Both the position numbers and the translations under genes were made by a program. Positions 11,695 through 30,148 of a stretch of 64,000 nt of DNA are shown piece by piece. A model generated the notes under the pieces. That model was not told where the DNA came from. It did not search any database and worked only from the letters and a program-made list of their open reading frames with translations. The DNA comes from Terebella lapidaria (Eukaryota; Annelida; Polychaeta; Terebellida; Terebellidae), in NCBI GenBank assembly GCA_949152475.1, contig OX424562.1:25544209-25608208 (forward strand). Reading direction: 5' to 3'. The first letter of the stretch is position 1. Each line of letters starts with the position of its first letter.

Positions 11695-12590
11695 TGTGAC
11701 GTTTGGTAATGACTTGTTTTCGGTGTGGCCCAAAAAACCTGGTTTCTCTGATCGTATAGACTTTATGTAACTCCCGCTCGTTGTGATTCGAGAGCCGTCA
11801 CTAAATTGGTGTCCCCCAACGCTGGTGTATCATCACTCCGTAGCTCACCGGCTTCACTTAGGCAAGAAGCAACTCAGATGTAAATAAATTGAAGATTTAT
11901 ATACATCAAATCAACTTACAATTGTATGGCTGGTCACCCACGTGACGTACAAATATGAAGTTCAGACATGGAGCACTGTATGATCACATTTCAAAAATAA
12001 ATAGTGCACGAGGGCACAACTAAAAAGAGTTCTTAGCCGGCGGCGTCTCTCTGTCCCTTCCCGTTGAAGTTTCCCGTCCCGCTTAGTCGAATGGTTTCTC
12101 CAGGTAGTCGGTCTAAATCCCGGTTGACTCTAAGGCCCTGAAGAAGGAGTCGTCCGCACGGAGTTCGTCGAGTCCCTTGGCTGTGGCGGTGACGATCTCC
12201 CCACGGTCGATGTCGCTGTTGCAGTGCTCTCAGAGCGGCCGTCCGCTCTCCCTTATATAGCCAGGGTGGCTGCGCGCGCATCTTCGTCCGCGAACGTATC
12301 TTCCGCACTCTTCTCCACGTGGTGAAGACTGCGTCCGCGAACGGTTCTTCCGCGAAGGCTCCTCTTCCGCGAACGGTGCTTCCGCGACTGATGCTTCCGC
12401 TGATGATGCTTCCGCAATCGTGCTTCCGCGAACGGTTCTTCCGCGAACGATGCTTCCGCTGATGATGCTTCCGCAATCGTGCTTCCGCGAACGGTTCTTC
12501 CGCGAACGGTGTCTTCGCAAGTGGACTTTGTAGATCACGTGACCGTTCCTAACGAACGTTTCAGCGCGGCAGTTGCATGGTTTTGTTACA
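11695..12590 (-). repeat. 3' LTR of the gypsy element
   Basis: 896 bp, same sequence as 21758-22653 wherever compared. In element orientation: TGTAAC start, a block of TTCGCGGAA-type repeats (about 12,270-12,520), TATATAAG at 12252-12259, then the R/U5 part ending GTCACA. No AATAAA is seen on the element strand; a TATAAA near the end of the LTR may serve for polyadenylation. Confidence 0.95.
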
Positions 12591-12604
12591 ACTCCACCCT
12601 TTCT
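12591..12604 (-). other. polypurine tract next to the 3' LTR
   Basis: The element strand reads AGAAAGGGTGGAGT directly before the 3' LTR (TGTAAC). It is mostly purine and in the correct place to prime plus-strand DNA. A second, longer purine-rich run lies at about 12,633-12,675. Confidence 0.6.
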
Positions 12605-12607
12605 GGA

Positions 12608-12627
12608 GATCAACGTCCCCGTTGATC
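12608..12627. other. perfect 8-bp stem with 4-nt loop between two purine tracts
   Basis: GATCAACG tccc CGTTGATC forms a perfect inverted repeat, flanked on one side by the LTR-proximal polypurine tract and on the other by the longer purine run. It could shape plus-strand priming or RNA 3' structure; this is inference. Confidence 0.55.
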
Positions 12628-12710
12628 CTTTCTCTCTCTTCTTTTCTCTTCTTCCTCCTTCTTCGTCTTTTCCTGCCTGTCTGATGTTTACAGGGCTCTC
12701 TCCCTCCACT

Positions 12711-13799
12711 TCACTGGCGATCCACCTCGCTTTCGGACGTCTCCGCCAGCCTGTCTCGAGTGTCTGTATATGCTCGGAGCTGTTCCCGGAGCAGCTTGGT
12801 CTCTCGGACGTGGGCTCGCAGCTCCTTCCGGTGGCTCTTCTCTCGTTGAGAGGCCTCCCCTCGCAGCTGCAGCACCTCGGCCTCGAGCTGTCTCTGCTCC
12901 TCCTTGGCTTGGAGCCGAGCCTCCGCTTGGGTGAGGTGGCGTCGTCCCATGGCTATCGTGGACGCCAGGTCCTCCAGGGCCTTCTCTCCGGCAGTGACCG
13001 CTCTGCCCAGGCCCTCCACATACGGTCGCAGTTGGTCCTCCTCCTCCGGAACGGGCTTGAGGTACCAACTCAGGTCTAGGGGCTTGTAGGTAGGGGCCGA
13101 GTCTCTGGGAACGGGGGGTCCGTCGTCCTCGGGGGTGGGGGCCTCCGGGGATTCCGCCTCTCTCCGCTCCTGCTGAGACTCCGGTTCCTCTTCGCTATTC
13201 GGGGGGTCGTCCTCGGGGTCTGGGGCGTCCTCTGACCTGGGGGCGTCCTCCCGGGGGCTTGACGGCGTGGAGCTGGTCGTCCCGCTGGCCGCAAAGCTGA
13301 CAGTCTTCAGCTCAGGGGCAGACACAGTAGTCGGACCATCTCGGGGGTCGGACACGGGCGTGTCGGTCGTCGTCCTCCTCCGTCCTGGCTTGAGGGTGTT
13401 GCCGCTGGCATGCGACGTCTCATGCCGGTCTCTGTCAGCTCGGCGGGCGAATCGCTGGCTGCACATCTTGCAGAGGTGCCGCCCCTCCTTCTGCGTGTGT
13501 TTGGTCGCCACGTGTCGGCTAAAGTTGGATGCCGTCACGTGGATCCGGCAGGGGCTGCACCAGCGTCGCCCTCTCTCGGTGGACAACTTCCGGGCAGGGG
13601 ACCGTCGACCTCCTCGGGGCTCCTCACGACGCTCCCGGCTCCTCGAGCGCTCCCGCTTTCGGTCAGGCTTGGTAGGTGGGTCGCTCATCTTGTCGACTTC
13701 AAGGGGCAGAAAGTCAGCCAAGTCGAAATCTGGAACGTCCCCGAAATCTTCGTCTGCAAATGCGGGTATCTCAATGATCTGCAGAGTTGGTGTGTTCAT
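12711..13799 (-). CDS. ORF3: C2H2 zinc-finger, coiled-coil protein, putative transactivator (362 aa)
   Basis: It sits between pol and the 3' LTR, in the position env occupies in errantiviruses, but has no signal peptide or membrane segment. Residues 1-37 are acidic and hydrophobic (FADEDFG, DFDLADFLPLEVD), like an activation domain. Residues 45-80 are Arg/Ser-rich and basic, possibly nuclear targeting. Finger 1 has C81, C84, H96, H101; finger 2 has C110, C113, H126, H130 (CKMCSQRFARRADRDRH), a classical C2H2. A Pro/Glu-rich acidic linker follows (about 165-240), and from about 265 a charged heptad-like region suggests a dimerising coiled coil. Met1 is followed by an alternative Met38 (MSDPP). 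Function is inferred: a DNA-binding regulator of the element, possibly acting on its repeat arrays. An RNA-binding or packaging role is the main alternative. Confidence 0.75.
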   Translation of the reverse strand: MNTPTLQIIEIPAFADEDFGDVPDFDLADFLPLEVDKMSDPPTKPDRKRERSRSRERREEPRGGRRSPARKLSTERGRRWCSPCRIHVTASNFSRHVATKHTQKEGRHLCKMCSQRFARRADRDRHETSHASGNTLKPGRRRTTTDTPVSDPRDGPTTVSAPELKTVSFAASGTTSSTPSSPREDAPRSEDAPDPEDDPPNSEEEPESQQERREAESPEAPTPEDDGPPVPRDSAPTYKPLDLSWYLKPVPEEEDQLRPYVEGLGRAVTAGEKALEDLASTIAMGRRHLTQAEARLQAKEEQRQLEAEVLQLRGEASQREKSHRKELRAHVRETKLLREQLRAYTDTRDRLAETSESEVDRQ

Positions 13800-13833
13800 G
13801 GTTGAAGTGATGACGGAATCGTAGGCCGGCCTG

Positions 13834-13841
13834 CTTATATA
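13834..13841 (-). promoter_or_regulatory. putative internal promoter TATA box for ORF3
   Basis: TATATAAG in context TTTTCTATATAAGCAGG, the same core as the LTR box and placed in the same order after a TTCCGCGAACG array. The distance to the ORF3 Met at 13799 is about 35 bases, which implies a very short leader or use of the second Met (residue 38). Read from sequence; promoter activity is inferred. Confidence 0.5.
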
Positions 13842-13904
13842 GAAAAGGCGCGGACCAGGGATCTGGGGGAAAAAGCATTGTCGTGGAACGAAATAACGTT
13901 TTTC

Positions 13905-14034
13905 GCTTGCTTCCGCGAACGGTTCTTCCGCGAACGCTGCTTCCGCGAACGTGCTTCCGCGAACGGTACTTCCGCGAACGCTGCTTCCGCGAACGCTGCT
14001 TCCGCGAACGGTTCTTCCGCGAACGCTCCCGTCA
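13905..14034. repeat. eight-copy TTCCGCGAACG array upstream of ORF3
   Basis: Eight near-perfect units CTTCCGCGAACGNTN of 14-15 bp lie just past the pol stop codon (14039) and 65-190 bp upstream of the TATATAAG box. It is the most homogeneous of the element's arrays and the same unit as in the LTR. Confidence 0.85.
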
Positions 14035-14038
14035 TCGT

Positions 14039-17000
14039 TTACATCGTTTGGACTGCATTCCCGCTGTTTTCCACTCGTCCCTCGTCATCACTGGGGGTCC
14101 GGACTGGGGTCACATCGTCCGGATTGGGTATCCAGGCGTCGGTTTCAGGGGTGAACCAGCACCTTTTTATATTGTCAATGTGGACATCTTTAATCTTGCC
14201 ACCGGGTCGATCTTGTATGGACACCATCCATCCGAGATGAGACTTCACAACGAGATAAGGTCCCGTCCACCCTAGTCCTAGTTTTGGTCTAGCCTTTGGA
14301 GGGTACCAATACATCACCCAGGTGCCCACCGGAAAATGTCGAGCGGCTGATTTTATGTCATGATGGCGCTTTTGTCGCACCGTAGCCGTCTTCAGGCACT
14401 CTCGGGCAGTCTCGTGAGCTTGTATGGTGGCTTCCTTCACCCATTCGACGTATTCGGACGCACACTCGGGGACTGGTCCTCCCAAATCGTCCGGTTTCGT
14501 CCGGTACCTCAGGTCCAATGGGGTGGTTGCCTCCCGTCCCATCATCATTCGAAATGGTGTACACCCGGTGCTTTCGTGTACTGATGTTCTATAAGTCGCC
14601 ATCACGTAGGGCAGATGGTCGTCCCAGTCGTCATGGTTCTCGTCCACGACCACGGCCAGAAGGTTCAGCAGGGTCCGGTTGAATCGCTCGACCATCCCGT
14701 CTGATTTGGCGTGATAAGGGGTCGTCCGAGTCTTCTCCCCTCCTAGGATCTTGATCATCTCAAGGAAAAGCTTACTCTCGAACTCTCGTCCCTGGTCGGT
14801 GTGTATCTTGGCTGGCATTCCCAGGCGGCACACGAACTCAGTCACAAAGACGTCCGCCACCGTCTGAGCCTCATGGTTGGGTAGAGCGTAGGCCTCAGTC
14901 CACTTGGTGAAATAATCACCCACGACCAGTATATACCGGTTCCCAGAATTGGTGATCGTTCCAGGCTCCAAAATGTCCATGGCCACCCTTTCTAGCCGAT
15001 CGCCTACCGGTAGATTTCCCATGGGGTGGTACTTGGGCCCCGGTCGCGGCTTTCTCCCACTACACTTCAGGCACTCCCGGCACCAACGCTCCACGTCCTT
15101 CGTCATACCCGGCCAGTACATTCTCGCTTTTAGTCGGTGGACTGTTTTGGTGATTCCCTGGTGGCTCATCAGCTTGCCGGTGTGGACCTCCTTCATGACG
15201 GCGCGTCTCAGGACCTGTGGAACGACCAGTTGATGGATTGGTGCGTTCTGGCAAGCCGCTTGGTACCGCCGGTACAGAAGCCCATCACGTAGCTCCAGCT
15301 GGTCCCACTGTTGCCACAGAGTCTTCATTTGCTGACTTTTTGTTCTGACTTCGGGCCATGCAGGTCTCTCAGTGAAAATATTCTTCCACCCGAGGATGCC
15401 TCCAACTTCAGGGTCGGCTCGTTGAAGGGTCACTAGGTCCTCCTGGGAATAACCATTCAGGACCTGGGCCTCCGGGGCTCCCTCCATCGGATTCCGGCGT
15501 CCTCCCGTAGCCATAGCCCGCGTGACAGCTAGCATTTGTTTGTCTGGATCTCGGAGCACAGGGTTGGGGCATGGGTCCAGGAAGGGCTCCTCTCGGCAGC
15601 GCATCCACACGTCGGCCGTCGCGCCGATCGCTGCTCCGGCCACAACCTCCGGTCCCAAACCATGCAGTGCGAGGAGCATCATCAGGAGAAACCAAACCCA
15701 GGCAGAGGGGCGGAGCTGATGCAGGGTTCTGCAGACGCTCCTGGCTCCTTCCTCCGTCTGTGGGGGGCTCCGGTCAGGCAGGCATTCCTCGGCCGGCTGG
15801 GTAGTCGTCCTCGGGTCCTCCTGGCAGCGCACCTCCCAGATCCGGAATATCCCGACTCCATCTCCGCAATAGTAGTCCTCCGTCCAGGGCTCCACAGGGA
15901 CCTCCCGCAAGATGTTAACTTGAGGTCCTCCGGGGCTCCATCCTTCTCCGCTGATCGGTGGAAGCAGATCCTCGTCAGAGAGGTCCTCCAGGGGTAGGGG
16001 ACACTCCTCCTGAGTCGGACAGGCCTCCTCTTCTCCTTCGGGTCTTGTGGTGTGGCGAGGGGCGGGACAATCCGGTCTCCGGCACTGTCGGCATCTGGAC
16101 ATCCCGTCTGCATTCCCGTGTTGTACTCCCGGTCGGACCTCACACCTGAAGGCGTAGCTGGCGATGCGAGCTGCCCATCTAGCGATCATTCCTTCCGCAT
16201 CCCGAAAGTTCAGTAGCCACTTGAGAGAGGCGTGGTCGGTTCGTAGTAAGAACGCTCTCCCCCACAAGAAATGTCTGAAATGGTGTATCATACTGACGAC
16301 GGCCAGGAGCTCCCGCTTGGTGGTGCAGTAATTCCGCTGGGTGTCCCTCAGGGTTCTGGAAGCATAGGCGATCACCCGCTCTCGTCCGTCCTGCACTTGG
16401 GATAAGACGCCTCCCACTCCGTAGCCGCTAGCATCAGTATCTAAAATAAATTCTTGGTCCATGTCAGGGTACACCAGCAGGGGGTGCTCGGTCAGGGGTT
16501 GACGCAGCGCCTCGAACGCCTGCTGATGAGCCTCGCTCCAATGGTAGTTGACTTCCTTCTTTAACAGGTGGTTGAGGGGTCCCGCTCGGGTGGCAAAGTC
16601 AGGGATGAATCTGCGGTAGTACCCCACGAACCCAAGGAAGCTCCTTAGTTCTGTCAAGGTGGTCGGAGGAACCATTTTTGTTACAGCTTCGACCTTGGCA
16701 GGGTCGCACTGGATGCCTCGGTCGGACACGACATGGCCCAGGAAGTTGACCTGTTGTCGAAACAGCTCACACTTGGCGGGTTTCAGCTTCAGCCCGGCAG
16801 CCTGCAGTCTCCGGAACACGTCCTCGAGGTTGTCCACGGCTTCTTGGAAAGTCTTTCCAAGACAGACGACATCGTCCAAATAAATTAGACAACGCTTCCA
16901 TTGGAGTCCCCTCAGTGCCAGCTCCATTAGACGTTCAAAAGTAGCCGGGGCCGTCGCCAATCCAAACGGCATCACTTTAAATTGATAGAGTCCACTACGG

Positions 17001-19111
17001 GTAGTGAACGCCGTCTTCTCCTTGTCCCTGTCGTCCATCTCGACCTGCCAGTAACCACTAGCCAAGTCTAGCGTCGAAAAATATCGTCCTCCTGACAAGG
17101 TATCAAAACTCTCGTCGACTCGAGGCAGGGGGTACGCATCCTTCCGGGTGACATCATTTAGACGGCGGTAGTCGACGCAAAATCTCAGTGCACCATCCTT
17201 CTTTTTCACTAGCACGATGGGAGACGACCATGGACTGTCGCTTGGCTCCACAACGTCAGCTTTCAACATCTTGTCGACCTCGTCCTCGATCAGCTCTTGT
17301 TGGTAGTACGGGGCTCTCCTCAGAGGCTGCTTGATCGGGGGGTGATCTCCCGTGTCGATGACGTGTTTCGCCAGGGACGTCCGGCCCAACCTCCCATCTG
17401 GTCCCATAAAGACCTGCTGGTGGCGTCGAAGGAGATCGCTGACGACCTCCACCTCCTTTTCCGTCAAGTTCGGATGCATTCCCTCCAGGAGCGGTTCTAA
17501 ATGCTCCGGGCACTCTGGTGTCTTCGTCGACGATTCTGCGTGCATGGCGTGCACTCTGGTTTCGGGCTGCTCAGGCGTCCGGTTCCGCCACTTGGTGGAG
17601 TTTGGTGTAAGGGGCTCATGCTCCCTCCCGCTCTCCTCCCGGTACCACTGTTCCCTTTTAGGTTCATTCTGGGTTGTTTTCCCTCCATCGGGACGAAATC
17701 CCAGGTCGATCACGGCCTCTATTCCGTGAAGCTCGGCTAGGATGGTCCCCATCAGCACAGTGCAAGCTCCAGCGCCGGCGTTCAGAAGTACCACCGGTAC
17801 CAGGCGTCCTCGGGGTCGTACCAGGGCTCGTCCCACTACGAGGGGGTCGTCCTCCAACGGCTCTCTTGCGGACTGCACGAGGCCGGCCTTCGGAACTCCT
17901 CCCTCACTTCCTGTCAGCTTGAGGTCCACCATCATCTCTGAAAAGGGTGGCAAGACGACCGTCTCCTCCGTCACCAGTGTGTAGACGGCGTCCTCGTGGC
18001 CCGAGCTCATCACTACGGTAGTGTCGCCCACCTGCCACTCGCCCTTACGCAGATCCAGCTGTCCCCCAATCTGTTGAAGTACATCAAGCCCCAACACTCC
18101 CGGGATCCCTAGTTTGGCTACCAGTACATCTGCCGACACGAGTCGTGTGCCCAGTAGAAGTTGAACTGTCATCTCTCCTTGAACCTGTAAGTAGTCTCCG
18201 GTTGCTGCCCGTAACCTTATTCTCGTCTGCCTTATCATTGCTTTATGTTCGTCATCCATTTGGTCGAAGAGACACTCGTCCAGAACGGTGGAAGAGGCAC
18301 CCGTGTCCACCAACATACGAGTCGCCTTCCCCATAACGTGGCACGCCGCATACCACGCCAATGTGCCTCGGGCACCGGCTGACAGCGACACCACCTGGCC
18401 ATTTCTGTCAATCTTAAGAGAGCTGCCACTCTCCTCAGGGACGCCGCCCTGGATAAGTACTGAGTCGTCCACCCACAGTGATGCACCACCCTGGTCCTCT
18501 CTGTCAGTCTTAAGGGAATCACTCCCCTCGGAACCGCCGCTCCGGATAAGTAATGAGTCGTCCACCAGCAATAGCTGCTGCGCTGGCCCCTTGGTCATTC
18601 CGCTCCACCGGCCCTCCGTCTCCTCTTTCACGGCCGCTTGTGGTTCAGTTGCATAGGGGGGTCCCTGCTGTTTCGCAGCCTCCAGCCTCAAGGTTGTAAC
18701 CTGTTGGTTCTCCTTGCTGCTAGCAGAAACCTCGTTGATGTCTCCGTGGGTCCCCAGACGCTCCACGGCTCCATCGGTCTGCATTTCGTCGACGTCTCCG
18801 CGGGTCATTAGACGCTCCACGGCTCCATCGGTCTGCATTTCCTTGACGTCTCCGCGGGGCATTAGACGCTCCACGGCTCCATCGGTTTGCTGTACATTGG
18901 CACTCCCGTCTGTGTTGACAGGCTTGCCCTCCAAATAGTCGAGAATTCGATCCTCGAGCTCCTCCTGCGCCCATCCAGTTACTTCGGATGCACACCGGAA
19001 AAACCTATTAAAAATCTGTGAAACTAAAAATTCCCCCCTGGCAATGTGTTCTTCACGTCTTCGTCGAGCTTCTCGCCTGTGAAGCCGTGCACACACCTGC
19101 CAATGGCCCAT
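14039..19111 (-). CDS. pol: pol polyprotein: protease, RT, RNase H, integrase (1690 aa from its first Met)
   Basis: Order of domains: N-terminal linker with short tandem repeats (about 70-250); aspartic protease with VDTGASS (about 267); reverse transcriptase with YLDD active site (about 742); RNase H with DTDASGYG (about 890); a long spacer with a Cys-rich piece and one hydrophobic stretch (about 1000-1160); integrase zinc-binding HHCC (about 1300-1355); integrase core D...D...E (MDILEPG about 1378, HTDQGREF about 1436, MVERFNR about 1473); and a GPY/F-type module (GWTGPYLVV about 1615). All catalytic residues I can check are present and there is no internal stop. It copies the RNA and integrates the cDNA. 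The order RT-RNase H-integrase places it in Ty3/gypsy (Metaviridae type). Confidence 0.95.
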   Translation of the reverse strand: MGHWQVCARLHRREARRRREEHIARGEFLVSQIFNRFFRCASEVTGWAQEELEDRILDYLEGKPVNTDGSANVQQTDGAVERLMPRGDVKEMQTDGAVERLMTRGDVDEMQTDGAVERLGTHGDINEVSASSKENQQVTTLRLEAAKQQGPPYATEPQAAVKEETEGRWSGMTKGPAQQLLLVDDSLLIRSGGSEGSDSLKTDREDQGGASLWVDDSVLIQGGVPEESGSSLKIDRNGQVVSLSAGARGTLAWYAACHVMGKATRMLVDTGASSTVLDECLFDQMDDEHKAMIRQTRIRLRAATGDYLQVQGEMTVQLLLGTRLVSADVLVAKLGIPGVLGLDVLQQIGGQLDLRKGEWQVGDTTVVMSSGHEDAVYTLVTEETVVLPPFSEMMVDLKLTGSEGGVPKAGLVQSAREPLEDDPLVVGRALVRPRGRLVPVVLLNAGAGACTVLMGTILAELHGIEAVIDLGFRPDGGKTTQNEPKREQWYREESGREHEPLTPNSTKWRNRTPEQPETRVHAMHAESSTKTPECPEHLEPLLEGMHPNLTEKEVEVVSDLLRRHQQVFMGPDGRLGRTSLAKHVIDTGDHPPIKQPLRRAPYYQQELIEDEVDKMLKADVVEPSDSPWSSPIVLVKKKDGALRFCVDYRRLNDVTRKDAYPLPRVDESFDTLSGGRYFSTLDLASGYWQVEMDDRDKEKTAFTTRSGLYQFKVMPFGLATAPATFERLMELALRGLQWKRCLIYLDDVVCLGKTFQEAVDNLEDVFRRLQAAGLKLKPAKCELFRQQVNFLGHVVSDRGIQCDPAKVEAVTKMVPPTTLTELRSFLGFVGYYRRFIPDFATRAGPLNHLLKKEVNYHWSEAHQQAFEALRQPLTEHPLLVYPDMDQEFILDTDASGYGVGGVLSQVQDGRERVIAYASRTLRDTQRNYCTTKRELLAVVSMIHHFRHFLWGRAFLLRTDHASLKWLLNFRDAEGMIARWAARIASYAFRCEVRPGVQHGNADGMSRCRQCRRPDCPAPRHTTRPEGEEEACPTQEECPLPLEDLSDEDLLPPISGEGWSPGGPQVNILREVPVEPWTEDYYCGDGVGIFRIWEVRCQEDPRTTTQPAEECLPDRSPPQTEEGARSVCRTLHQLRPSAWVWFLLMMLLALHGLGPEVVAGAAIGATADVWMRCREEPFLDPCPNPVLRDPDKQMLAVTRAMATGGRRNPMEGAPEAQVLNGYSQEDLVTLQRADPEVGGILGWKNIFTERPAWPEVRTKSQQMKTLWQQWDQLELRDGLLYRRYQAACQNAPIHQLVVPQVLRRAVMKEVHTGKLMSHQGITKTVHRLKARMYWPGMTKDVERWCRECLKCSGRKPRPGPKYHPMGNLPVGDRLERVAMDILEPGTITNSGNRYILVVGDYFTKWTEAYALPNHEAQTVADVFVTEFVCRLGMPAKIHTDQGREFESKLFLEMIKILGGEKTRTTPYHAKSDGMVERFNRTLLNLLAVVVDENHDDWDDHLPYVMATYRTSVHESTGCTPFRMMMGREATTPLDLRYRTKPDDLGGPVPECASEYVEWVKEATIQAHETARECLKTATVRQKRHHDIKSAARHFPVGTWVMYWYPPKARPKLGLGWTGPYLVVKSHLGWMVSIQDRPGGKIKDVHIDNIKRCWFTPETDAWIPNPDDVTPVRTPSDDEGRVENSGNAVQTM
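18733..18900 (-). repeat. three tandem 57-60 bp repeats in the pol N-terminus
   Basis: They encode QTDGAVERLMPRGDVKEM, QTDGAVERLMTRGDVDEM and QTDGAVERLGTHGDINEV in a row. A second, two-copy repeat follows at about 18,390-18,570 (LLLVDDSLLIRSGG... / LWVDDSVLIQGG...). These lie upstream of the protease in a linker that probably tolerates length change. Confidence 0.8.
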
Positions 19112-19134
19112 ACGGTTGGGGGCTGGTATGAGCC

Positions 19135-21693
19135 CTACTGGTTTTCCGACACCTCGTCTGTCAAACTGTTCCGCTCACCAATCTCCTCGATTAGTCGACT
19201 CAAGCGCTCCTCCTTGGTCCGAGGTGGCGGCCGATCTGGACACTGGTACTTCCGATGACCCGGCTTCCCACAGTACCAACAGTCATCTGGTCCCGGCCTA
19301 GCGCTTGGTCCCTTGTTCTCAGCAGTGGCGGCCCTCGGCTTGATGGATAGCACCTGCTCACACAGCTCGATTAGTCGATCCAGCTTCCTGTCTTGGCTCT
19401 CAAAGAGCCCCTTGAAGTAGGGAAGTCTGGGTAGACCCGCTACGTTCGGCTGGTTGCTCTGCTGCCCACTGGTGGTAATCTCGCCTCCCTGCTGGTTCTT
19501 CAACAGCTGTAGGACCCGTCCTAGAGCTGGCTCGGAGTCCTCCGACTCTATGGACATTACCGGCTTCCCAGGCTTGGGTTTGACACATTCGTACTGGGTC
19601 ACGAACGCTATGGCCTCCTCCATGGTCTTCATCTTCCTCATGAGCGCCATCACCTTCATGTCCCCATCTGGATGGCCCTTCCAGAAGTGGTCTAAGGCGA
19701 TAGCCTCCTGAGCTGCGGAGTTCAGATCCGGATAACCACGGCCGGCCAGTCGCTGCAACTCATAGCCGTACTGCTGGGGTGTCTCTGCCTTCCTGCGGGT
19801 TCTTTGTCCCAAGGTCGCCTTGTAGGACTCCTCCTGACAGTCAGGGTCGAATCGTAGGGTCAGCTTGTCGGTCAGAACGTCGATGTCCCTCCGGTCTGCA
19901 GGACTCAGGCTGGTCAGCATTCGTCGCGCCTCTCCTGTCAAGCTCCCGGCTAAGTAGACGCCCTGTTCCCGCTTGCTCCATCCGTTGACCTCTGCGATGA
20001 CGTCAAAGTGGGCCCGGTACACCGGCCACTCTATGGAAGTCCCATCGAACTTGTCAGGGGTCAGCATCTTCCGGTTCCTTCTGCCGTTCTGATTCCAGGC
20101 TGTGCTGTCCTCGGACGACGAGTCCTCCTGCCTCCGTCTCGGCCTAGGGCTTCGTCGGTGCAGCGGCGGTCCCCGCCTCGGTGGTCTCCTCCCCCGTCCT
20201 GGGTAACCATGGCTGCTGTCGGTCCCTCCATCAGATGAAGGCCCCTCATCGCCCGATGATGAGAAAGGGTGCTGTCTCCGGCCTCCCTGGGTGACTGAAA
20301 TAGAAGCTGGATTTCTCCAGGAGGCTGGCTGTCTCGGTTGTCGACTGGGTGAAGACCTCCCTCTTCCGCGAACGCTGTCTTCCGCGAACCCTCCGCGAAC
20401 ACTGTCTTCCGCGAACCTTCCGCGAACGGACTCCTCCGCCAACAGCTCCCGAAGAAGTTCTTCCGCGAACAGGCCTCTTCCGCGAACGCCGTCTTCCGCG
20501 AGTCTTCCGCGAACGGGCTCGTCCGCCAAGATGTCTCGGAGACGTCCCTCCACAAAAGATGTACGTCCGCGAACGCCATCTTCCGCGAGTCTTCCGCGAA
20601 CCGGCTCATCCGCGAATGGTCTTCCCCGTCTATTCTGAAAAACTGGAAAGGAAGATTGGTCGCCTGGATCACTCCTTTCGTCGAGCCGCCGTCTGGGTGA
20701 AGACTCCTCTCTTCCGCGAACACTCTCTTCCGCGAGTCGTCCTCGTCCGCGAACGTGGTCGTCCGCGAAGGGCCCTCCCCGGTCACAAGCGTCCTCGTCA
20801 CCAAAGACTCCCCCTCGCCCACGAGCCCGTTCATCCACGAAGGATCCCCGGTTGCAAGCGTCCCTGTCGCCGAAGAATGCCTCTCGTCCGCGAATGTTCT
20901 CTTCCGCGAAAAGTCCTCTCCCTCTCGAGCTGCTCTCTTGGGTCGGAGCCCAAGTAACCCGTCCTCCAGTCACTCCCGTTTGTCGACTCGTCACACCCGA
21001 CCGCTGCCCTGTTGCACCAGACTGCTGCTCTGTTGCACCAGACTGCTGCTGGGACTGGTCCCAAAGCCGTCTCAATGCTGCATTCTCTGGAGGTGCCACA
21101 CTTGGACTCTGCTCCGGTAGCTGTAGCCGATCCCTCCTCGCCCAGATTTCGCCGTCCTCCCCGTCCAGATTGACGTACTCCGGTCCCAGCACTCGTCGGA
21201 ACTCGGGGCCCCTCCTAACGCTCTCAAGGTAGGTTGACCTCTCCCTGTCTCGATCGTGCTGCCACCCAGAGTCGTGTCTGAAAAGAAAACGGTTGTCGGG
21301 TGTCTGGCTCCGGGGTCTCTGTTGACTAGTCGACTGGCCCATGGAAGGTCTCGACCTCCCTGGTTGCTCCTCACTCGTCGAAACGTCCCGTCTACCCCTG
21401 GCTGTGAAGCTGCTCTTCCGCGAACGGTCGTCTTCCGCGAACGTTGTCTTCCGCGAACGGTCGTCGGCCTCTTCCGCCAAGGTCGTCTTCCGCGAACGGT
21501 TGTCGTCCGCGAACGTCTTCCGCGAACGGTCGTCTTCCGCGAACGTCTTCCGCGAACGGTCGTCTCCCTCTTCCGCAAAGGTCGGCTTCCGCGAACCGCT
21601 GTCTTCCTCGTCCGCAAGTGAGGCCGTCCGCGAAGAGTCTTCCTCTTCACCTCCTGTCTTCCCTGGGGCAGTTTCGTCGTTTTCGCCGGACAT
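19135..21693 (-). CDS. gag: gag polyprotein, 852 aa, with long repeat-rich N-terminus
   Basis: The structural protein of the particle. The first 540 residues or so are low-complexity, charged and repetitive: R-S-R-K-T-F-A-E-D-D and S-V-R-G-R-F-A-E-D units are encoded by the same TTCGCGGAAGA DNA repeat found in the LTR. A capsid-like helical region follows (about 541-700: LTPDKFDGTSIEWPVYRAHF...GEARRML...YGYELQRL), the usual retrotransposon gag fold. A CCHC zinc knuckle CWYCGKPGHRKYQC at about 801-815 would bind RNA. It is unusually long for a gypsy gag, and the N-terminal extension accounts for that. The leader from the LTR is 64 nt. The stop overlaps the open upstream part of the pol frame. 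Confidence 0.9.
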   Translation of the reverse strand: MSGENDETAPGKTGGEEEDSSRTASLADEEDSGSRKPTFAEEGDDRSRKTFAEDDRSRKTFADDNRSRKTTLAEEADDRSRKTTFAEDDRSRKSSFTARGRRDVSTSEEQPGRSRPSMGQSTSQQRPRSQTPDNRFLFRHDSGWQHDRDRERSTYLESVRRGPEFRRVLGPEYVNLDGEDGEIWARRDRLQLPEQSPSVAPPENAALRRLWDQSQQQSGATEQQSGATGQRSGVTSRQTGVTGGRVTWAPTQESSSRGRGLFAEENIRGREAFFGDRDACNRGSFVDERARGRGGVFGDEDACDRGGPFADDHVRGRGRLAEESVRGREESSPRRRLDERSDPGDQSSFPVFQNRRGRPFADEPVRGRLAEDGVRGRTSFVEGRLRDILADEPVRGRLAEDGVRGRGLFAEELLRELLAEESVRGRFAEDSVRGGFAEDSVRGRGRSSPSRQPRQPASWRNPASISVTQGGRRQHPFSSSGDEGPSSDGGTDSSHGYPGRGRRPPRRGPPLHRRSPRPRRRQEDSSSEDSTAWNQNGRRNRKMLTPDKFDGTSIEWPVYRAHFDVIAEVNGWSKREQGVYLAGSLTGEARRMLTSLSPADRRDIDVLTDKLTLRFDPDCQEESYKATLGQRTRRKAETPQQYGYELQRLAGRGYPDLNSAAQEAIALDHFWKGHPDGDMKVMALMRKMKTMEEAIAFVTQYECVKPKPGKPVMSIESEDSEPALGRVLQLLKNQQGGEITTSGQQSNQPNVAGLPRLPYFKGLFESQDRKLDRLIELCEQVLSIKPRAATAENKGPSARPGPDDCWYCGKPGHRKYQCPDRPPPRTKEERLSRLIEEIGERNSLTDEVSENQ
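19141..19147 (-). promoter_or_regulatory. possible -1 ribosomal frameshift site at the gag-pol junction
   Basis: The element strand reads G GAA AAC CAG TAG in the gag frame, the heptamer GGAAAAC ending three bases before the gag stop (19135-19137). The pol frame is exactly -1 relative to gag and is open through this point (QFDRRGVGKPVGL...). The A-site part AAAAC is ideal, while the first triplet GGA is not a homopolymer, so it is a near-match to the X XXY YYZ rule. Internal initiation at the pol Met (19111) is the alternative. Confidence 0.4.
20361..20930 (-). repeat. TTCCGCGAACG repeats inside gag, block 2
   Basis: Many copies of the LTR-type unit (TTCCGCGAAC with spacers of 3-6 bases), kept in frame to encode repeated V-R-G-R-F/L-A-E-D/E modules. 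The unit is interspersed with GTCCGCGAA variants. Confidence 0.75.
21410..21640 (-). repeat. TTCCGCGAACG repeats inside gag, block 1
   Basis: About ten units with period 15-18, in frame, encoding D-D-R-S-R-K-T-F-A-E repeats near the Gag N-terminus. The nucleotide unit is the same as in the LTR and in the spacer upstream of ORF3. Confidence 0.75.
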
Positions 21694-21736
21694 GAGTGAT
21701 GCTGAGGTTCGTTCCCTGGCAGTAGACCCTCGGGGA

Positions 21737-21754
21737 TCCTGGTCACGTGCACCA
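21737..21754 (-). other. candidate tRNA primer-binding site
   Basis: Three bases after the end of the 5' LTR the element strand reads TGGTGCACGTGACCAGGA. It begins with the TGG expected to pair with a tRNA CCA end. I could not match the rest to a particular tRNA acceptor stem, so the primer is unassigned. Confidence 0.5.
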
Positions 21755-22314
21755 AGTTGTGACGTTTGGTAATGACTTGTTTTCGGTGTGGCCCAAAAAA
21801 CCTGGTTTCTCTGATCGTATAGACTTTATGTAACTCCCGCTCGTTGTGATTCGAGAGCCGTCACTAAATTGGTGTCCCCCAACGCTGGTGTATCATCACT
21901 CCGTAGCTCACCGGCTTCACTTAGGCAAGAAGCAACTCAGATGTAAATAAATTGAAGATTTATATACATCAAATCAACTTACAATTGTATGGCTGGTCAC
22001 CCACGTGACGTACAAATATGAAGTTCAGACATGGAGCACTGTATGATCACATTTCAAAAATAAATAGTGCACGAGGGCACAACTAAAAAGAGTTCTTAGC
22101 CGGCGGCGTCTCTCTGTCCCTTCCCGTTGAAGTTTCCCGTCCCGCTTAGTCGAATGGTTTCTCCAGGTAGTCGGTCTAAATCCCGGTTGACTCTAAGGCC
22201 CTGAAGAAGGAGTCGTCCGCACGGAGTTCGTCGAGTCCCTTGGCTGTGGCGGTGACGATCTCCCCACGGTCGATGTCGCTGTTGCAGTGCTCTCAGAGCG
22301 GCCGTCCGCTCTCC

Positions 22315-22322
22315 CTTATATA
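22315..22322 (-). promoter_or_regulatory. LTR TATA box
   Basis: TATATAAG on the minus strand, in context GGCTATATAAGGGAG, immediately downstream of the TTCCGCGAACG array. Transcription should start about 25-30 bases on, near 22285-22290. The identical box in the 3' LTR is at 12252-12259. Confidence 0.7.
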
Positions 22323-22334
22323 GCCAGGGTGGCT

Positions 22335-22585
22335 GCGCGCGCATCTTCGTCCGCGAACGTATCTTCCGCACTCTTCTCCACGTGGTGAAGACTGCGTCCG
22401 CGAACGGTTCTTCCGCGAAGGCTCCTCTTCCGCGAACGGTGCTTCCGCGACTGATGCTTCCGCTGATGATGCTTCCGCAATCGTGCTTCCGCGAACGGTT
22501 CTTCCGCGAACGATGCTTCCGCTGATGATGCTTCCGCAATCGTGCTTCCGCGAACGGTTCTTCCGCGAACGGTGTCTTCGCAAGT
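22335..22585. repeat. TTCCGCGAACG-type repeat array in the LTR U3
   Basis: About a dozen units of 11-16 bp built on CTTCCGCGAACGGT, with variants CTTCCGCTGATGATG and CTTCCGCAATCGTG that recur in a higher-order pattern. The core TTCCGCGAA is a near-palindrome of the form TTC-N3-GAA. The same array is in the 3' LTR at about 12,270-12,520. Its place just upstream of the TATA box makes it a likely enhancer (inference). Confidence 0.75.
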
Positions 22586-22657
22586 GGACTTTGTAGATCA
22601 CGTGACCGTTCCTAACGAACGTTTCAGCGCGGCAGTTGCATGGTTTTGTTACAATTA

Positions 22658-23340: not shown

Positions 23341-23512
23341 AACCGCCCATAGAAATGTGTGTCAACGATGGTCTTCATCGCGTGAACATTTTCATAAGGA
23401 TTTATACGGAATTTGTCACCATTTATTTTCCAAACAAAACAAAAACGATACAACTTGATTAGGAATATTCAAGACTGTATTATTGTTACTAGTCTCCTAT
23501 GGGTCTCCTATT

Positions 23513-23965
23513 CTATAGACATCAGCATGATCTGTGTCTAAAATAATTCTATGGACGTCATCATATCCATCTATAATAAATACCGCGTAGGTCATTATGA
23601 TCCTTATCTATAAAAATTGTGTGGACGTCTTAACGATCCCTGTCTGTAAGAAAATTATGTGGACGTCTTCATGATCAGTGTCTGAAAGAATTTCTGTTAA
23701 TGTCATCATGATTTCTGTTGAGAAATTTTGTCGAAGTAATCACAATCAATGTATTCAAGAATATATATATATGGACATCATCATGATCCGTGTCTATAAG
23801 AAATTCTGTAGACGTCATCATGGTCATCATGATCCTTTTCTATACATATGTAAGAAATTCTGAAAAAAAGTCGTAGTCCGTTTCTATAAGAAATTATGTG
23901 GAAGTTGTATGATCGTGTATATAAAAAATTATGTGGACGTCTTCACGATCCGTGTCTCATGAGAT
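23513..23965. repeat. degenerate minisatellite, unit about 39-41 bp, about 11 units
   Basis: The unit resembles gtgtctataagaaattatgt followed by ggacgtcttcatgatcc. The recurring words are tctataagaaatt, tgtggacgtc and atcatgatc. Single fragments of the unit also occur at about 38,030 and 42,390. Confidence 0.7.
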
Positions 23966-25286: not shown

Positions 25287-25908
25287 CGGTGCCCCTAATA
25301 GGACACGAGAATTTTTTTTTTGAACATGTCTTATTTCGTCCCGACGAATTAGTATTTCGTCTGGACGAAATAGTATTTCGTCTGGACGAATTATTATTTC
25401 GTCCCGACGAATTATTATTTCGTTCCGACGAATTATCAAGCGTTATAGTCTTCTCGATTCATTGTATGAGTACATGAACGAAGTGAGCGTGCCCCAATCA
25501 AGAGGGAGGGGGTGCTGTCTGGGGCTCTTAGTGGGCAAAGTGGGTTCTATTCTGGGTTTAATTGCGGCCAATTGGCGCTATTTAGAGCACCGAATGTCTA
25601 ATTGAAGCGAGGGTAGGGACACAGTGCATGCAAAGGGAGAGGGAGCTGTTCTTCCCCTCAGACACACATATGGATAGCTGTATCTCATTTCATGAATCCG
25701 ACATAATATAGGCACGATAATTCGTCCAGACGAAACAATAATTCGTCCAGACGAAATATCAACTCGTCGAGACGAAATACTTATTCGTCCAGACGAAGTA
25801 ATATTTCGTCCAGACGAAATACTAATTCGTCCAGACGAAATATTAATTCGTCCAGATGAAATAAAGCCTGCTCTAAAATAAGTTTCTCATGTCCTATTAG
25901 GGGCACCG
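25287..25908. mobile_element. 622-bp TIR element with 21-bp palindromic subrepeats
   Basis: Terminal inverted repeats begin CGGTGCCCCTAATAGGACA and end in its near-perfect reverse complement, flanked by TA on both sides, as for Tc1/mariner-type MITEs. Inside the left end are five 21-bp units of the form TATTTCGTCCCGACGAATTAN (25330-25437). Inside the right end are seven units AATTCGTCCAGACGAAATANT (25719-25866). Each unit is itself a palindrome (TTCGTCnnGACGAA). The middle holds a short unique segment with no transposase ORF, so it is non-autonomous. Confidence 0.75.
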
Positions 25909-26200: not shown

Positions 26201-27238
26201 TCATCGTTTCGATTGTTGTAGAGGGGGTGTTGCTCCCTGGGGAGTTTCTGTTCTCTGGAGGGACATGCGAACCATGTCCGCATGTGGGTTCATTCCGCTG
26301 TTGGAAATAACCGAGATCGACGTATCAGATCGTTGTTTGCTCTGGTTAATGGAGTGACGTGGCCTTACTCTGGGACTCTGATATGCATTACCACCTTTCG
26401 ACAATGAATCTAGTATGGGAAATCCCTTGGATAGCTTATCAGGGTTTTCTGCACTTTGATCGCACGGAGGGGATTGGTGGACGATGACGTCATAATCTAC
26501 TGGTGTCATGGCGCCGTTGCTGTGATCCGGACTTCCTGTCATTCCTGCAGTGAGCATGCTCGACCTTGAGTGTAAACTTATCCTGTCCAGACGTAGAGAT
26601 ACGTTGTCCACAGTTCTGACAGACAACAGTGCGTCGTTCTCGTTTGGAACCGTCAGGCCGGTCCTGTCATTCAAAATAGCGAATAGCTTGTCCTTATTTG
26701 ATATGTTTTCTACGGAAGCTCCGCTCTCGGTAGCTAGTATTTTCACACATTCGATGTGCCCTTTATCCAAAGCTTCTGATAACGCTGTACCTCCACATTT
26801 GTTGACGTCATCAATACGTATCGTGTCTTTGGTGTGAGAGTCATTCACGAGAATTCTCAGGGCTGAATGGTTATCATTGGATGCCGCATACCACAACGCA
26901 CTATTGCCCGCTTTGTCTTTCTTATTAGGATCGCAGACACCACTGGATATTAACCTACGTATGACGTCATCACGATTACCCAGAATGCACGCGTACATCA
27001 GTGGCGTACGGTAATCTCTGTCGGGAATGTTGACGTCACATTTGTGTTTAACCAAGAGACGTACAAAGTGCGCGCGCACATCTTCTTTCTCGACTTTTAT
27101 GGCGTGAATCAGCGGCGTGAGCCCGGTCTCGTCCGCGAAATTCAGATCATATCGTCTATCCAGGTACGTGCAGACCGCACGGACTTTCTCAGTCTGTATG
27201 GACCTTATGAAGGCAATCTTCTCTTCTCGACTTGACAT
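26201..27238 (-). CDS. ankyrin-repeat protein, intronless, 345 aa
   Basis: Start chosen at the ATG giving MSSREEKIAFIRSIQ; the frame stays open upstream, but no earlier ATG was seen. Ankyrin units are seen at about residues 35-75 (DETGLTPLIHAIKVEKEDVR), 72-110 (RDYRTPLMYACILGNRDDVI), 108-145 (KAGNSALWYAASNDNHSAL) and 145-185 (CGGTALSEALDKGHIECVK), each with the TPL/SAL turn. The remaining 160 residues are polar and Ser-rich with no recognised domain, likely disordered. No signal peptide or membrane segment, so cytosolic. The layout (N-terminal ankyrins, long disordered tail, single coding exon) is reminiscent of ANKRD34-like proteins, but that is a weak match by memory. It probably mediates protein-protein contacts. 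Confidence 0.8.
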   Translation of the reverse strand: MSSREEKIAFIRSIQTEKVRAVCTYLDRRYDLNFADETGLTPLIHAIKVEKEDVRAHFVRLLVKHKCDVNIPDRDYRTPLMYACILGNRDDVIRRLISSGVCDPNKKDKAGNSALWYAASNDNHSALRILVNDSHTKDTIRIDDVNKCGGTALSEALDKGHIECVKILATESGASVENISNKDKLFAILNDRTGLTVPNENDALLSVRTVDNVSLRLDRISLHSRSSMLTAGMTGSPDHSNGAMTPVDYDVIVHQSPPCDQSAENPDKLSKGFPILDSLSKGGNAYQSPRVRPRHSINQSKQRSDTSISVISNSGMNPHADMVRMSLQRTETPQGATPPLQQSKR

Positions 27239-27299
27239 CGCTGCTAATCTTCGTTGCAGTGTGACAATCTTCCGTTTGAACGAAGAGAAAACCACTAAG

Positions 27300-29629
27300 A
27301 GCCGTGTTCTCCTTTTCCTAAAGTCCTCTTGAAATCAGCTTACTATTCGATATCTACGTTGTAAAATGTTTTCGTTTATGATCAGTCTCGGTTGCAACGC
27401 AGTCAGACTAGCGCTACCTGTTGAACTGGCCGCATGGCCGGTGCTTTTTTTTCGGCTCGGTGGTCCCATGAAGCGCCTGACTGGAAGCCGATAATAAACC
27501 TGAGGTCATTAATCCGGTCACTCGGTCCTAGGATTGATTTCCCCTATCGTGCGTGACGTCGTGAGCTATTATCCCCGAGTCGAAATACCTCGTAGAGGAG
27601 ATTAACATGACAAGTGATACACGTCAGATGTCACCCAGTCACATTGACTTCTCTCCCAGTTCGTATTGTTCCTTTGGCCGGGTGTAATCCTCCTTAGACC
27701 CTGAGCAACCGAAATCAATCCCTGCCCCCACGCAGTACGGGTCCGGCCGGTCCGTCGTCATGGTCACGGGACACTCTCAGGATAGAACAGCTGCAAATGA
27801 ATTACACAGTTCCCTTCCAACTTTATATTTTACCCTGCAATCCTTACCATGGACAAACTGCTCAATAATTTATGTCACGAATGTTGCACGGGGGAGAAAT
27901 GAAATAGGCCTACTACCGTGTCCAGATATCCATTTTTTACAGTTCCGAGTCACAGTGCATATTCTGAACGCACTTATATGATGCGTGTACTGTTCAATGT
28001 ATTCACTTCCTTCCCTGGAAGGAATACGGTTTGGTGGAGTGGTTGTGATGTCTAATCAATCCAAGGATCCCAAGCTCGTGTAGTTTCCTCCAGTTATCAG
28101 GACGAGGGTGAGTGAATGGGTCTTCCGCCCGATAGCATACCTTGGTCGGATCAAACGGGGATAAATATCGATATCAGGTTATGTGAGCCACAGGAGCAAT
28201 GTCCACTAGAACACTGACTACTTCAGTATGAGCAAAGCAACTTATGAGTTGCATGAAAAATAGGATAATTGGAGATGCAGTCAGTATCAATAGCTAGAAC
28301 TGTTAACACTAGTAATAATAGACCACATGCTGCAACTTGATATGAAATAAATGACGTCTTTCTGATGCATGAGTTGACTTTTCGTGCATATTGCAAAAAA
28401 AAAAGCTTTATTGCTGCCCATTGTCAACGCGCAGTCACAAGAACAGAACCCACGCATGTCACAATGTGAAGATAGGACAAATCACATAGTACGGTTCGAC
28501 GAACCATTAATAAATCACAGACCATAAATTGCATGTAGTTCTCTATATCATCAGGAAGCAGAGATGGTCTTCGGTCATTGCTCATGGCACACCAGAATAT
28601 CAAGACAATTATTGTTTCGGCGACAAGTGTTAGTATATACCTATATATATATATATGTATTAAATACACCGGGTAGCATATAATATATGGCAGTAAAACC
28701 CTAATAAATACTTCCATAAACACTTCGTCAAATTACTCGGGGGTTTAAAAAAATCCTAACGCACTTGTATGTTTTACAACGTAATAGATTTCACTAATGC
28801 ACCGCATTGTATCAATATGGCTAATGTTCTTGCGATCAATAGATGGTTATTATATGTGAAGGACACTTAGTACAGTGTAATCCCGCATAATGATATCGTA
28901 CATTATAAATTTAAAACTGTTTCGTCGACATGTTTACACCGTCGAGGAGCGATTTTAATTTTGAAACCCACCTTACGGGAATCAATATCCACCCATTTAG
29001 TACCAGCAGATACGATACATCATTGTTGATGGCTTGATATGAAATATACGTGATATACGTACATTCCGTTTGAGATCACTTAGCAAAACCTAGACGCATT
29101 CAAGATGGTATGGGAGGTAAGAGGAGGAAATGCTGACCAGTCCATAAAATATGAAATAGAAACCGATGTGCGGTCATTTCGTTCATGCGAATAATCTGAA
29201 ATTCAATATTAGTCTTCGCATTACCAGCGAGATATCAGGATATCTCGAAGATAAGTTTTCGGACATTAATGTTTGGTTGGGCTTTGATATGATACCAGAA
29301 GGTGTTGATGTTGGGTTTTCTTGTACTGAAAGTTGATGGGTTGTAGCCAACACATTACTAGGAAGTTCGGTACGTGATTCTTTAAGAATCAGAGATATCT
29401 TTGTCCGGATAAATCTCTGTATAAGCATGTCCTATTTATCAATCCAAATTATATTGAATATTGTTTATATTACAGGCATGTGCGGGTTCTTGAGTCACAA
29501 AATGTGAACATATTCACAATAGAAAAATATACGCTATGAGTATGTGCATACTCGTACATATTTCATACACATGATCACATGTAAATGTCTCTTCTGATGG
29601 AATATGTATTAGACATTCATATATGTAGT
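27300..29629. other. upstream region of the ankyrin gene and intergenic DNA
   Basis: 27300-27800 is less AT-rich and has several TGACGTC/GTGACG words, a plausible promoter zone for the ankyrin gene. The rest is AT-rich with a short (TA)n run near 28,642-28,656. No further gene is seen. Confidence 0.45.
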
Positions 29630-29700: not shown

Positions 29701-29944
29701 CAAACAAAACCTGACAATACAGTTTATCCAAAGACACACTGGCGTCATCAGGGCACAACTCGTATCCGATCCGTATGATCCCAATACAATCCATATCCTA
29801 ACAGCATGCGGGGTTCTTCATTTAAAAACAAAATCAAAATTATGGCGAACAATTTCTTTAATCGCGAGGCAATCAAACTGTCCATGTTTTAGTCTTTAGT
29901 ATTATACTACTAGTATGTCTTTTTAACATCGAACATTTGCATAA

Positions 29945-30072
29945 TATAGTATAGTATAGTATAGTGTAGTATAGTATAGTATAGTATAGTATAGTATAGT
30001 ATAGTATAGTATAGTATAGTATAGTATAGTATAGTATAGTATAGTATAGTATAGTATAGTATAGTATAGTAT
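29945..30072. repeat. (ATAGT)n pentanucleotide array, about 25 units
   Basis: Almost perfect ATAGT repeats with one GTAGT-type interruption. Together with 30149-30222 it flanks an inverted R1 copy. Confidence 0.95.
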
Positions 30073-30148
30073 ACAAAATGTTGTTTTACATTTGTTATTG
30101 GAATCGTCAAAATTTGGCGGTATTGGTGGTTATAGATTGATACTTACA
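30073..30148 (-). repeat. dispersed repeat R1, copy 3 (inverted)
   Basis: Reverse-complement orientation: tgttgttttacatttgttat, cgtcaaaatttggcggtat and tggttatagattgata. It lies exactly between two (ATAGT)n blocks. Confidence 0.55.

Follow-up and report, generated by a model that had tools for sequence, protein, structure and literature searches.

A gypsy-type retrotransposon may regulate itself through zinc fingers that fit its own repeat

A retrotransposon that carries one short repeat in its LTRs, in its gag gene and in front of an extra gene raises the question of whether the product of the extra gene acts on the repeats, so that the element encodes its own regulator. The window (the whole 64-kb stretch of DNA analysed), which probably comes from an animal, contains an intact Ty3/gypsy element on the minus strand at 11695–22653. 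Its two 896-bp LTRs are identical and end in TG..CA, the target duplication is 4 bp (TAAT) and both a primer-binding site and a PPT were recognized by eye. The main features are as follows.

21758..22653, minus strand: 5' LTR, 896 bp, 0 mismatches against 11695–12590
21741..21754, minus strand: primer-binding-site-like stretch with first letters TGGTGCAC, judged by eye
19135..21693, minus strand: gag ORF, 852 aa, zinc knuckle close to the C terminus
14039..19111, minus strand: pol ORF, 1690 aa, protease, RT, RNase H and integrase
12711..13799, minus strand: ORF3, 362 aa
11695..12590, minus strand: 3' LTR, 896 bp; TAAT flanks both element ends

The Pfam domain order of Pol is that of Ty3/gypsy elements (Metaviridae); the gag zinc knuckle scored slightly under the Pfam cut-off. 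An RT search returned 7231 matches at E <= 1e-60, and the best 120 of these 7231 are gypsy-type Pol by domain content. The window RT and six relatives form one clade of 7 (tree of 106 rows; SH-aLRT 100), and RT identity of these six nearest relatives to the window element is 62–67%. Pfam scans of three ORFs detected no env domain, and ORF3 is the sole long sense ORF 3' of pol. We ruled out an errantivirus or a retrovirus with env, given that no envelope gene follows pol, and ruled out membership of the Spumaretrovirinae by the Ty3/gypsy-type Pol and the lack of env. The element resembles the Ty3/gypsy elements of animals in its protease–RT–RNase H–integrase order, LTRs and 4-bp target duplication, but differs from them in having an extra sense-strand C2H2 ORF after pol and arrays in U3, in gag and before ORF3.

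The full array motif, TTCCGCGAACG, occurs 29 times on the plus strand of the 64-kb window and 0 times on the minus strand. All 29 copies lie within the element, with none in pol, ORF3 or the host flanks. The arrays are located as follows.

22347..22571, minus strand: U3 array of the 5' LTR; GCGGAA core at ~15 bp spacing; 12 TTCCGC, 5 of them TTCCGCGAACG
21415..21636, minus strand: gag array A, translated as RSRK and FAED
20363..20912, minus strand: gag array B, translated as FAE and VRG
13911..14025, minus strand: array 5' of ORF3; eight exact TTCCGCGAACG copies directly past the pol stop
12284..12508, minus strand: U3 array of the 3' LTR; 12 TTCCGC, 5 of them TTCCGCGAACG

ORF3, the eight copies before it and the three TATATAAG sites of the original prediction were confirmed; the two gag blocks, which together hold 11 exact copies and 26 TTCGCGGA cores, had been overlooked. 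These cores fall in all three gag frames (9, 10 and 7 in frames 0, 1 and 2, respectively), and pol and ORF3 contain none. The exact 12-mer is present 11 times in gag compared with an average of 0.12 across 300 synonymous-codon shuffles, a test that overstates the case because the gag repeats form composite units of 27–30 nt, which makes the 26 cores non-independent. GCGGA occurs 35 times in sense and once in antisense in gag (6.5 expected) and 14 and 0 times, respectively, at 22323–22653 (1.0 expected), and is at chance level in pol (9 and 2 versus 8.1 expected). It also heads the 141 strand-collapsed 5-mers of the non-coding arrays (22 copies). Within the U3 array the left half of the motif (CGTTC) is often lost and the GCGGAAG half is retained; the left half is well retained before ORF3 and in gag (GTTCGCGGA, 21 copies), so the recognized site may exceed GCGGAN.

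Arrays of this kind could be neutral, satellite-like products of slippage, and Tandem Repeats Finder does report ordinary tandem periods of 15, 44 and 59 bp. We consider this origin highly improbable, however, given that one core recurs at separate places, flanked and spaced differently, uses three gag frames, keeps to a single strand and is missing in its full form from pol and ORF3. Hairpins acting at the RNA level were rejected: stretches of the pre-ORF3, gag A and U3 arrays, three of the four blocks, folded no better than shuffles (z = -0.92, 0.72 and 1.71), which favours a role for the arrays at the DNA level.

ORF3 has three parts of interest.

13695..13754, minus strand: acidic, Phe/Leu-rich N-terminal stretch, residues 16–35, from the sequence
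13410..13559, minus strand: two C2H2 fingers, residues 81–130, contacts T-S-N-R (finger 1) and R-A-D-R (finger 2)
12717..13040, minus strand: 108-residue helix, residues 254–361, from the AlphaFold2 model

The ligand pattern, the model folds and PDB finger matches all identify tandem Cys2His2 fingers, with Tramtrack as the nearest solved two-finger match; Pfam zinc-finger matches fall under the curated cut-off. Both fingers and the coiled coil named in the original prediction have counterparts in the model (no alignment input; mean pLDDT 64), which contains two finger folds and the 108-residue helix (block pLDDT 95–97 over residues 271–350, less at both ends). The helix is probably a dimerizing coiled coil, and residues 16–35 appear to be activation-domain-like.

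Finger 2 has R-A-D-R at positions -1, 2, 3 and 6, the same set as a Zif268 variant; this identity is a comparison of contact residues and not alignment output (the alignment of ORF3 to the RADR peptide 1a1i spans 1a1i fingers 2–3, and the RADR helix is 1a1i helix 1). The variant binds GCGT, GCAC and GACC with Kd values of 0.035, 0.068 and 9.3 nM, respectively, and the DSNR variant binds GACC at 0.019 nM (PMC3002361, Table 1, in part). Finger 1, with C-X11-H spacing, has S2-N3-R6 in common with DSNR and an SNFxRH stretch in common with finger 1 of Tramtrack (PDB 2drp). Comparison with known fingers leaves the third base of finger 1 free. Under the recognition code, applied after the array motif was already known, the fingers are predicted to target GCG-GAN, matching the GCGGA core of the arrays.

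A protein search with ORF3 matched only P0001, a 99% identical copy on a 1767-nt ENA contig; a two-row ORF3 profile gave zero matches, a weak result because even P0001 was missed. Among the RT relatives, P0038 (67% RT identity) encodes, after pol, an Ala-Glu repeat and then two fingers in a single open frame with Pol, followed by a coiled-coil-like end (by eye). Its repeat, which is known as amino acids only, is compatible with GCGGAA and contains 14 Ala-Glu or Ala-Asp in a stretch of 110 aa (mean of 4.5 in shuffles, none of 500 reaching 14). Six of the eight finger contacts are identical between P0038 and ORF3, compared with 2 of the 31 remaining non-ligand residues (Fisher P = 0.0002). P0038 has D at position -1 of finger 1, as does DSNR (GAC), whereas its repeat encodes GAR.

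We also compared tails with 200 shuffles each in the 23 of 121 proteins with at least 100 aa after the motif. Tails of 4 of the 6 clade members and 1 of the 17 others (P0094) were above all shuffles, that of P0084 was borderline (P = 0.015) and P0025 and P0050 lacked a tail repeat by this comparison; the repeat frame tests number 18 in six proteins, with uncorrected P values. In P0032 and P0052, parts of the repeat are inconsistent with GCGGA. That the tail repeats of 4 of the 6 close relatives look different from those of the window element, and that a tail outside the clade beats all shuffles, would suit slippage. Scans of IMG/VR with ORF3, the array pattern, the Pol alignment, P0038 and P0032 yielded no relative. 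A scan of genome contigs found 12 loci at 35–45% identity, except for one (L012) with 61% over 98 residues; none has an array or, in three forward frames, a C2H2 pattern, and they count neither for nor against the proposal because they are too distant.

Because the ORF3 contacts predict the array core and P0038 keeps these contacts, we infer with good support from sequence that the element encodes its own DNA-binding regulator, as the original prediction had proposed for the shared repeat. On balance, it is probable that ORF3 is a sequence-specific regulator that targets the GCGGAN arrays at the LTR, in gag and at its own gene. The arrays could alternatively be sites for host factors, for which LTRs commonly carry cis-element arrays, with ORF3 serving an unrelated role such as RNA export or integration targeting. 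ORF3–array binding is itself a prediction from sequence; this alternative is nevertheless rather improbable, as the contacts match the array core and are selectively conserved in P0038.

As a regulator of this type, ORF3, probably as a coiled-coil dimer, would bind GCGGAN with finger 2 on GCG and finger 1 on GAN. Dense same-strand arrays of this site occur at the LTR promoter, in the first half of gag and immediately ahead of ORF3, so one protein could act on both the LTR and its own gene. The direction of that action is a separate matter. Were ORF3 to restrict expression of the element as a repressor or boundary protein, for copy-number control or insulation, gag arrays that lie past the LTR start would be well suited to it, and Tramtrack is a repressor. 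Drosophila gypsy contains an insulator, an array of zinc-finger sites on which the host protein Su(Hw) insulates; ORF3, by contrast, is encoded by the window element. Repression is nonetheless unlikely in our judgement: the N-terminal DEDFGDVPDFDLADFLPLEV is, by eye, of the acidic-hydrophobic activation type and the Pfam matches include no repression domain. The acidic N terminus makes activation or anti-silencing likelier than repression, although activation is only suggested by it.

A motif scan placed TATATAAG, a TATA word, at three sites.

22315..22322, minus strand: TATATAAG in the 5' LTR
13834..13841, minus strand: TATATAAG upstream of ORF3
12252..12259, minus strand: TATATAAG in the 3' LTR

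The order of array and then TATA, in one strand sense, recurs in both LTR U3 regions and upstream of ORF3, as originally described. In the 111-nt gap between the array and the ORF3 ATG, TATATAAG is expected 0.0001 (element composition) to 0.0006 (gap composition) times and the looser TATAWAW 0.001 to 0.02 times. An internal promoter driving ORF3 is a plausible candidate with a well-placed TATA box; transcription from ~30 nt past this box would give a leader as short as ~11 nt. The LTR also contains TATATAAA at 21966/11903, overlooked previously, which makes the LTR start site uncertain. The claim that the internal promoter copies the LTR promoter was too strong, as the two have in common the array and the TATA word only. 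Beyond the array they have only 8–9-bp words in common, such as CTATATAAG (blastn-short, E 1.1 or worse), and we therefore rejected a duplicated LTR as the source.

ORF3 could also be expressed by other routes. Splice sites on the sense strand of the element (944 AG, 529 GT) were scored with an approximate position weight matrix.

21912, minus strand: candidate donor in the 5' LTR, CCG/GTGAGC, second best of 529 GT, tied with the 3' LTR copy
13830..13862, minus strand: candidate acceptors ahead of ORF3, for an exon that starts at 13862 or 13830, fifth and sixth best of 944 AG

A spliced LTR transcript could therefore yield an array-binding ORF3, with the TATATAAG before ORF3 not being a start site; no ATG lies between these acceptors and that of ORF3. 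The scores are modest (3.9 bits at 13862, 3.6 at 13830), however, the element has 4 donors above 4 bits versus 8.3 expected and 6 acceptors above 3.5 versus 5.05, and the internal arrangement of array and TATATAAG would become a coincidence, so we regard splicing as unlikely. Still less probable is that ORF3 is made as the C-terminal portion of a fusion with Pol, by frameshift or read-through, perhaps released by the protease. The in-frame fingers of P0038 suit a fusion, as does the window ORF3 frame, which is open back to 14084 and overlaps the end of pol, weak evidence because the array is stop-free in that frame. Against it, the pol of the window terminates at a separate stop (14039), ORF3 starts at an ATG of its own, with A at -3, and the overlap contains no canonical slippery heptamer by eye. 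Both routes touch expression only and are compatible with ORF3 as a self-encoded regulator, and the probabilities of these readings need not sum to 1.

Foamy virus Tas is a 3' accessory DNA-binding protein that acts on the LTR and its own promoter (PMC4929722 and PMC8670036, in part). By analogy, ORF3 would be such a protein; however, the window element has no env ORF and is not a retrovirus, ORF3 has C2H2 fingers and its internal promoter is a candidate. VANDAL elements of Arabidopsis encode an anti-silencing protein, VANC, and carry a short motif in tandem same-orientation arrays that, in the excerpted account, are mainly non-coding (PMC5735166, in part). The window element likewise pairs an encoded protein with such arrays, but many of its motifs are in gag coding sequence and ORF3 differs from VANC. 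VANDAL elements are DNA transposons, not LTR elements; membership was ruled out, as the window element is an LTR element with RT and no VANC-type domain is among the Pfam matches. The plant Retand and Grande elements have an extra ORF and tandem repeats between pol and the 3' LTR, with predicted DNA binding (PMC11963269, in part), and Grande gene23 has its own promoter and encodes a nuclear protein (PMC7264820, in part). The window element shares the extra ORF past pol and the arrays there. In the excerpted accounts, however, the Retand and Grande ORFs (TRP28 domain, gene23) are mainly antisense and no protein-contact match to the repeat is described, whereas one is predicted for ORF3. An antisense ORF of this type was ruled out by the sense orientation of ORF3.

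Our broadest proposal is a tentative one, to which we give somewhat less than even odds: an animal Ty3/gypsy lineage that encodes its own zinc-finger activator or anti-silencer, with this protein and its binding-site arrays (LTR, gag and internal promoter) coevolving in a closed positive-feedback loop that arose independently of foamy viruses. If true, an env-less LTR retrotransposon would hold a full feedback circuit of regulator, promoter sites and regulator gene, with the target of the regulator predictable from its own sequence, and its gag coding sequence would have been shaped by an array of DNA-level sites. The element would then be a parallel, reached along a separate path, to Tas of foamy viruses and VANC of plants, and the pairings of array and fingers in its relatives would form a natural series in which to follow how zinc fingers coevolve with the sites they bind.

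The element under study is an intact Ty3/gypsy LTR retrotransposon with three sense open reading frames (ORFs):

11695–22653, minus strand: intact LTR retrotransposon
gag, sense: 852 aa
pol, sense: 1690 aa, with Pfam protease, RT, RNase H and integrase
ORF3, sense: 362 aa

Its paired LTRs (896 bp each, ends TG..CA) are identical; both flanks carry TAAT, and a primer-site-like stretch, TGGTGCAC, follows the 5′ LTR. Because the LTRs are identical and the ORFs open, the insertion is probably recent. Two tracts in N-terminal pol, upstream of the protease (18427–18566 and 18732–18893), are tandemly repeated, with units of 93 and 54 nt, and neither has a GCGGA array. A degenerate tandem array of 36–38-bp units (23510–23822) lies about 0.9 kb past the 5′ end of the element.

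The original prediction had ORF3 driven by an internal promoter resembling that of the LTR, and the features it was built on are present: eight exact copies of TTCCGCGAACG upstream of ORF3 (13911–14025), then TATATAAG (13834–13841, minus strand), an order found likewise in U3, the array-carrying part of the LTR. All 29 copies of the full motif, TTCCGCGAACG, are on the plus strand and the minus strand has none; 5 copies lie in each LTR, 8 before ORF3 and 11 in gag, the last having been missed in that prediction. By chance, the 111 nt that separate the array from the ORF3 ATG would contain TATATAAG 0.0001–0.0006 times, and the looser TATAWAW 0.001–0.02 times. Initiation about 30 nt past the TATA box would give a short leader, near 11 nt. 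We regard the case for expression of ORF3 from the internal TATA box as about evenly balanced; expression through splicing is less probable, and expression as a Pol fusion unlikely. The LTR has an additional box, TATATAAA, at 21966, so its start site is not certain.

The word TTCGCGGA is found 26 times in gag (9, 10 and 7 copies in frames 0, 1 and 2), where it translates as RSRK, FAE or VRG, and has no copies in pol or ORF3. Because all three frames are used, in two different unit types, the recurring item in gag appears to be a nucleotide word and not a peptide. The exact 12-mer CGTTCGCGGAAG has 11 copies in gag, where 300 synonymous-codon shuffles average 0.12; this excess is inflated by the spread of 27–30-nt composite units through duplication. 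RNA folds of three array stretches were no better than shuffles; a DNA-level site is therefore the simpler reading of the array.

Within U3, the GCGGAAG half of the unit is conserved and the CGTTC half often replaced (1.0–2.0 bits per column on the right and 0.4–1.2 on the left, in 18 units accepted at up to 7 mismatches, a few of them spurious). Each LTR has 12 TTCCGC, only 5 of them within the full TTCCGCGAACG. The other arrays give the right half no such prominence, since both halves are well kept before ORF3 (1.1–2.0 and 1.5–2.0 bits, 10 units) and the contrast is weaker in gag (79 loosely accepted units). The non-coding arrays contain 141 different 5-mers once the strands are collapsed, and GCGGA is the commonest (22 copies), followed by CGGAA and CTTCC (20 each).

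GCGGA copies by region, sense/antisense (expected per strand)
U3: 14/0 (1.0)
gag: 35/1 (6.5)
pol–ORF3 gap: 8/1 (0.7)
pol: 9/2 (8.1)
ORF3: 4/0 (2.5)

A single-sequence AlphaFold2 model of ORF3 (mean pLDDT 64, pTM 0.31) has two finger folds at residues 78–130 (block pLDDT 72–79 over 81–120 and 54 over 121–130) and a single helix at 254–361 (95–97 over 271–350); the protein starts with an acidic region rich in Phe and Leu, and Arg-rich sequence comes next. Finger helix positions are conventionally numbered back from the first His; positions −1, 2, 3 and 6, assigned in this way, are T-S-N-R in finger 1 and R-A-D-R in finger 2. Zinc fingers read DNA antiparallel, and ORF3 is thus predicted to read 5′-GC(G/A)-GAN-3′, beside which stands the array core GCGGAA. 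A fixed 5-mer would be among the eight words with at least 15 copies by chance in about 1.6% of cases (512 strand-collapsed possibilities). The agreement between code and motif is supportive but not blind, because the motif was known before the code was applied. Among Zif268 variants in Table 1 of PMC3002361, RADR has a Kd of 0.035 nM for GCGT, 0.068 for GCAC and 9.3 for GACC, and DSNR 0.019 for GACC. When the finger region was searched against PDB sequences, ZNF524 came first (E 5e-5), then Tramtrack (2drp; E 0.0014, both fingers aligned, SNF-RH shared in finger 1). The RADR Zif268 peptide (1a1i/1a1j/1a1k) also matched (E 0.0048) through its fingers 2–3 and not the RADR helix, so the R-A-D-R identity comes from our direct contact-residue comparison.

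Searching with ORF3 returned a single match, P0001 (99% identical, 3-residue insertion). Six pol relatives (62–67% RT identity), compared as proteins only, form one clade with the element (SH-aLRT 100; quick tree, 106 rows). Most of the close pol matches come from named animal hosts, so the element probably sits in an animal genome. After pol, the relative P0038 has an Ala-Glu-Gly-Pro type repeat, two fingers with weak Pfam zinc-finger matches and a coiled-coil-like end. Its fingers align with those of ORF3 (17/57 identical, E = 5e-5, single BLASTP comparison); 6/8 contact positions are identical, including all of R-A-D-R, against 2/31 other non-ligand finger positions (Fisher p = 0.0002). GCG GAA encodes Ala-Glu, the pair in the P0038 repeat, itself known as amino acids; the 110 aa of this repeat include 14 A[E/D], where shuffles average 4.5 and none of 500 is as high. 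Repeats near the Pol C-terminus of P0052, P0032 and P0037 are short-period, differ from one another (ENKEP, SALRQ and SARSG types) and are of other types than that of P0038; possibly they are sites for differently tuned regulators. Ser-Gly repeats of P0037 are compatible with AGCGGA (8 in 110 aa, uncorrected p 0.002), P0032 has a weaker third-frame signal (uncorrected p 0.012), and the P0052 tail repeat has a signal in none of the frames. P0025 and P0050 have no tail repeat above shuffles.

Elsewhere in the window, 21-bp units of two related types, TTATTTCGTCCCGACGAATTA and ATAATTCGTCCAGACGAAATA, form arrays at 25331–25436 and 25717–25864 that look by eye mutually inverted, much as the repetitive termini of a small DNA transposon would. 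A second pair (42705–42835 and 42918–43005; 21-bp units GTTCGCACGAAGTACTAAGTC and TAGTACTTCGTGCGAACGAAG) also looks mutually inverted and shares this layout with a different unit. An ATAGT pentamer array (56 copies) spans 29941–30222, and a 377-aa open frame with Pfam ankyrin repeats (26204–27334, minus strand) is probably a host gene or exon.

Published accounts describe a foamy virus activator acting with the LTR plus an internal promoter (PMC4929722), a Grande gene23 with its own promoter (PMC7264820) and, between pol and the 3′ LTR of plant Retand, repeats and DNA-binding-like ORFs (PMC11963269). The Retand ORFs are mainly antisense in that account, whereas the C2H2 ORF3 is sense. In the open-access literature covered, we found no gypsy element described as pairing arrays with a matching sense C2H2 ORF; we regard the arrangement as a variation on known systems. 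We propose that ORF3, once produced, would dimerise through its long helix, enter the nucleus and bind the dense arrays, and that at U3 and its own upstream region it would modulate transcription both of the whole element and of its own gene. Activation is the likelier effect in view of the acidic N-terminus; anti-silencing may also be allowed, given the precedent of VANC, whose motifs are reported to be same-orientation and of high density (PMC5735166).
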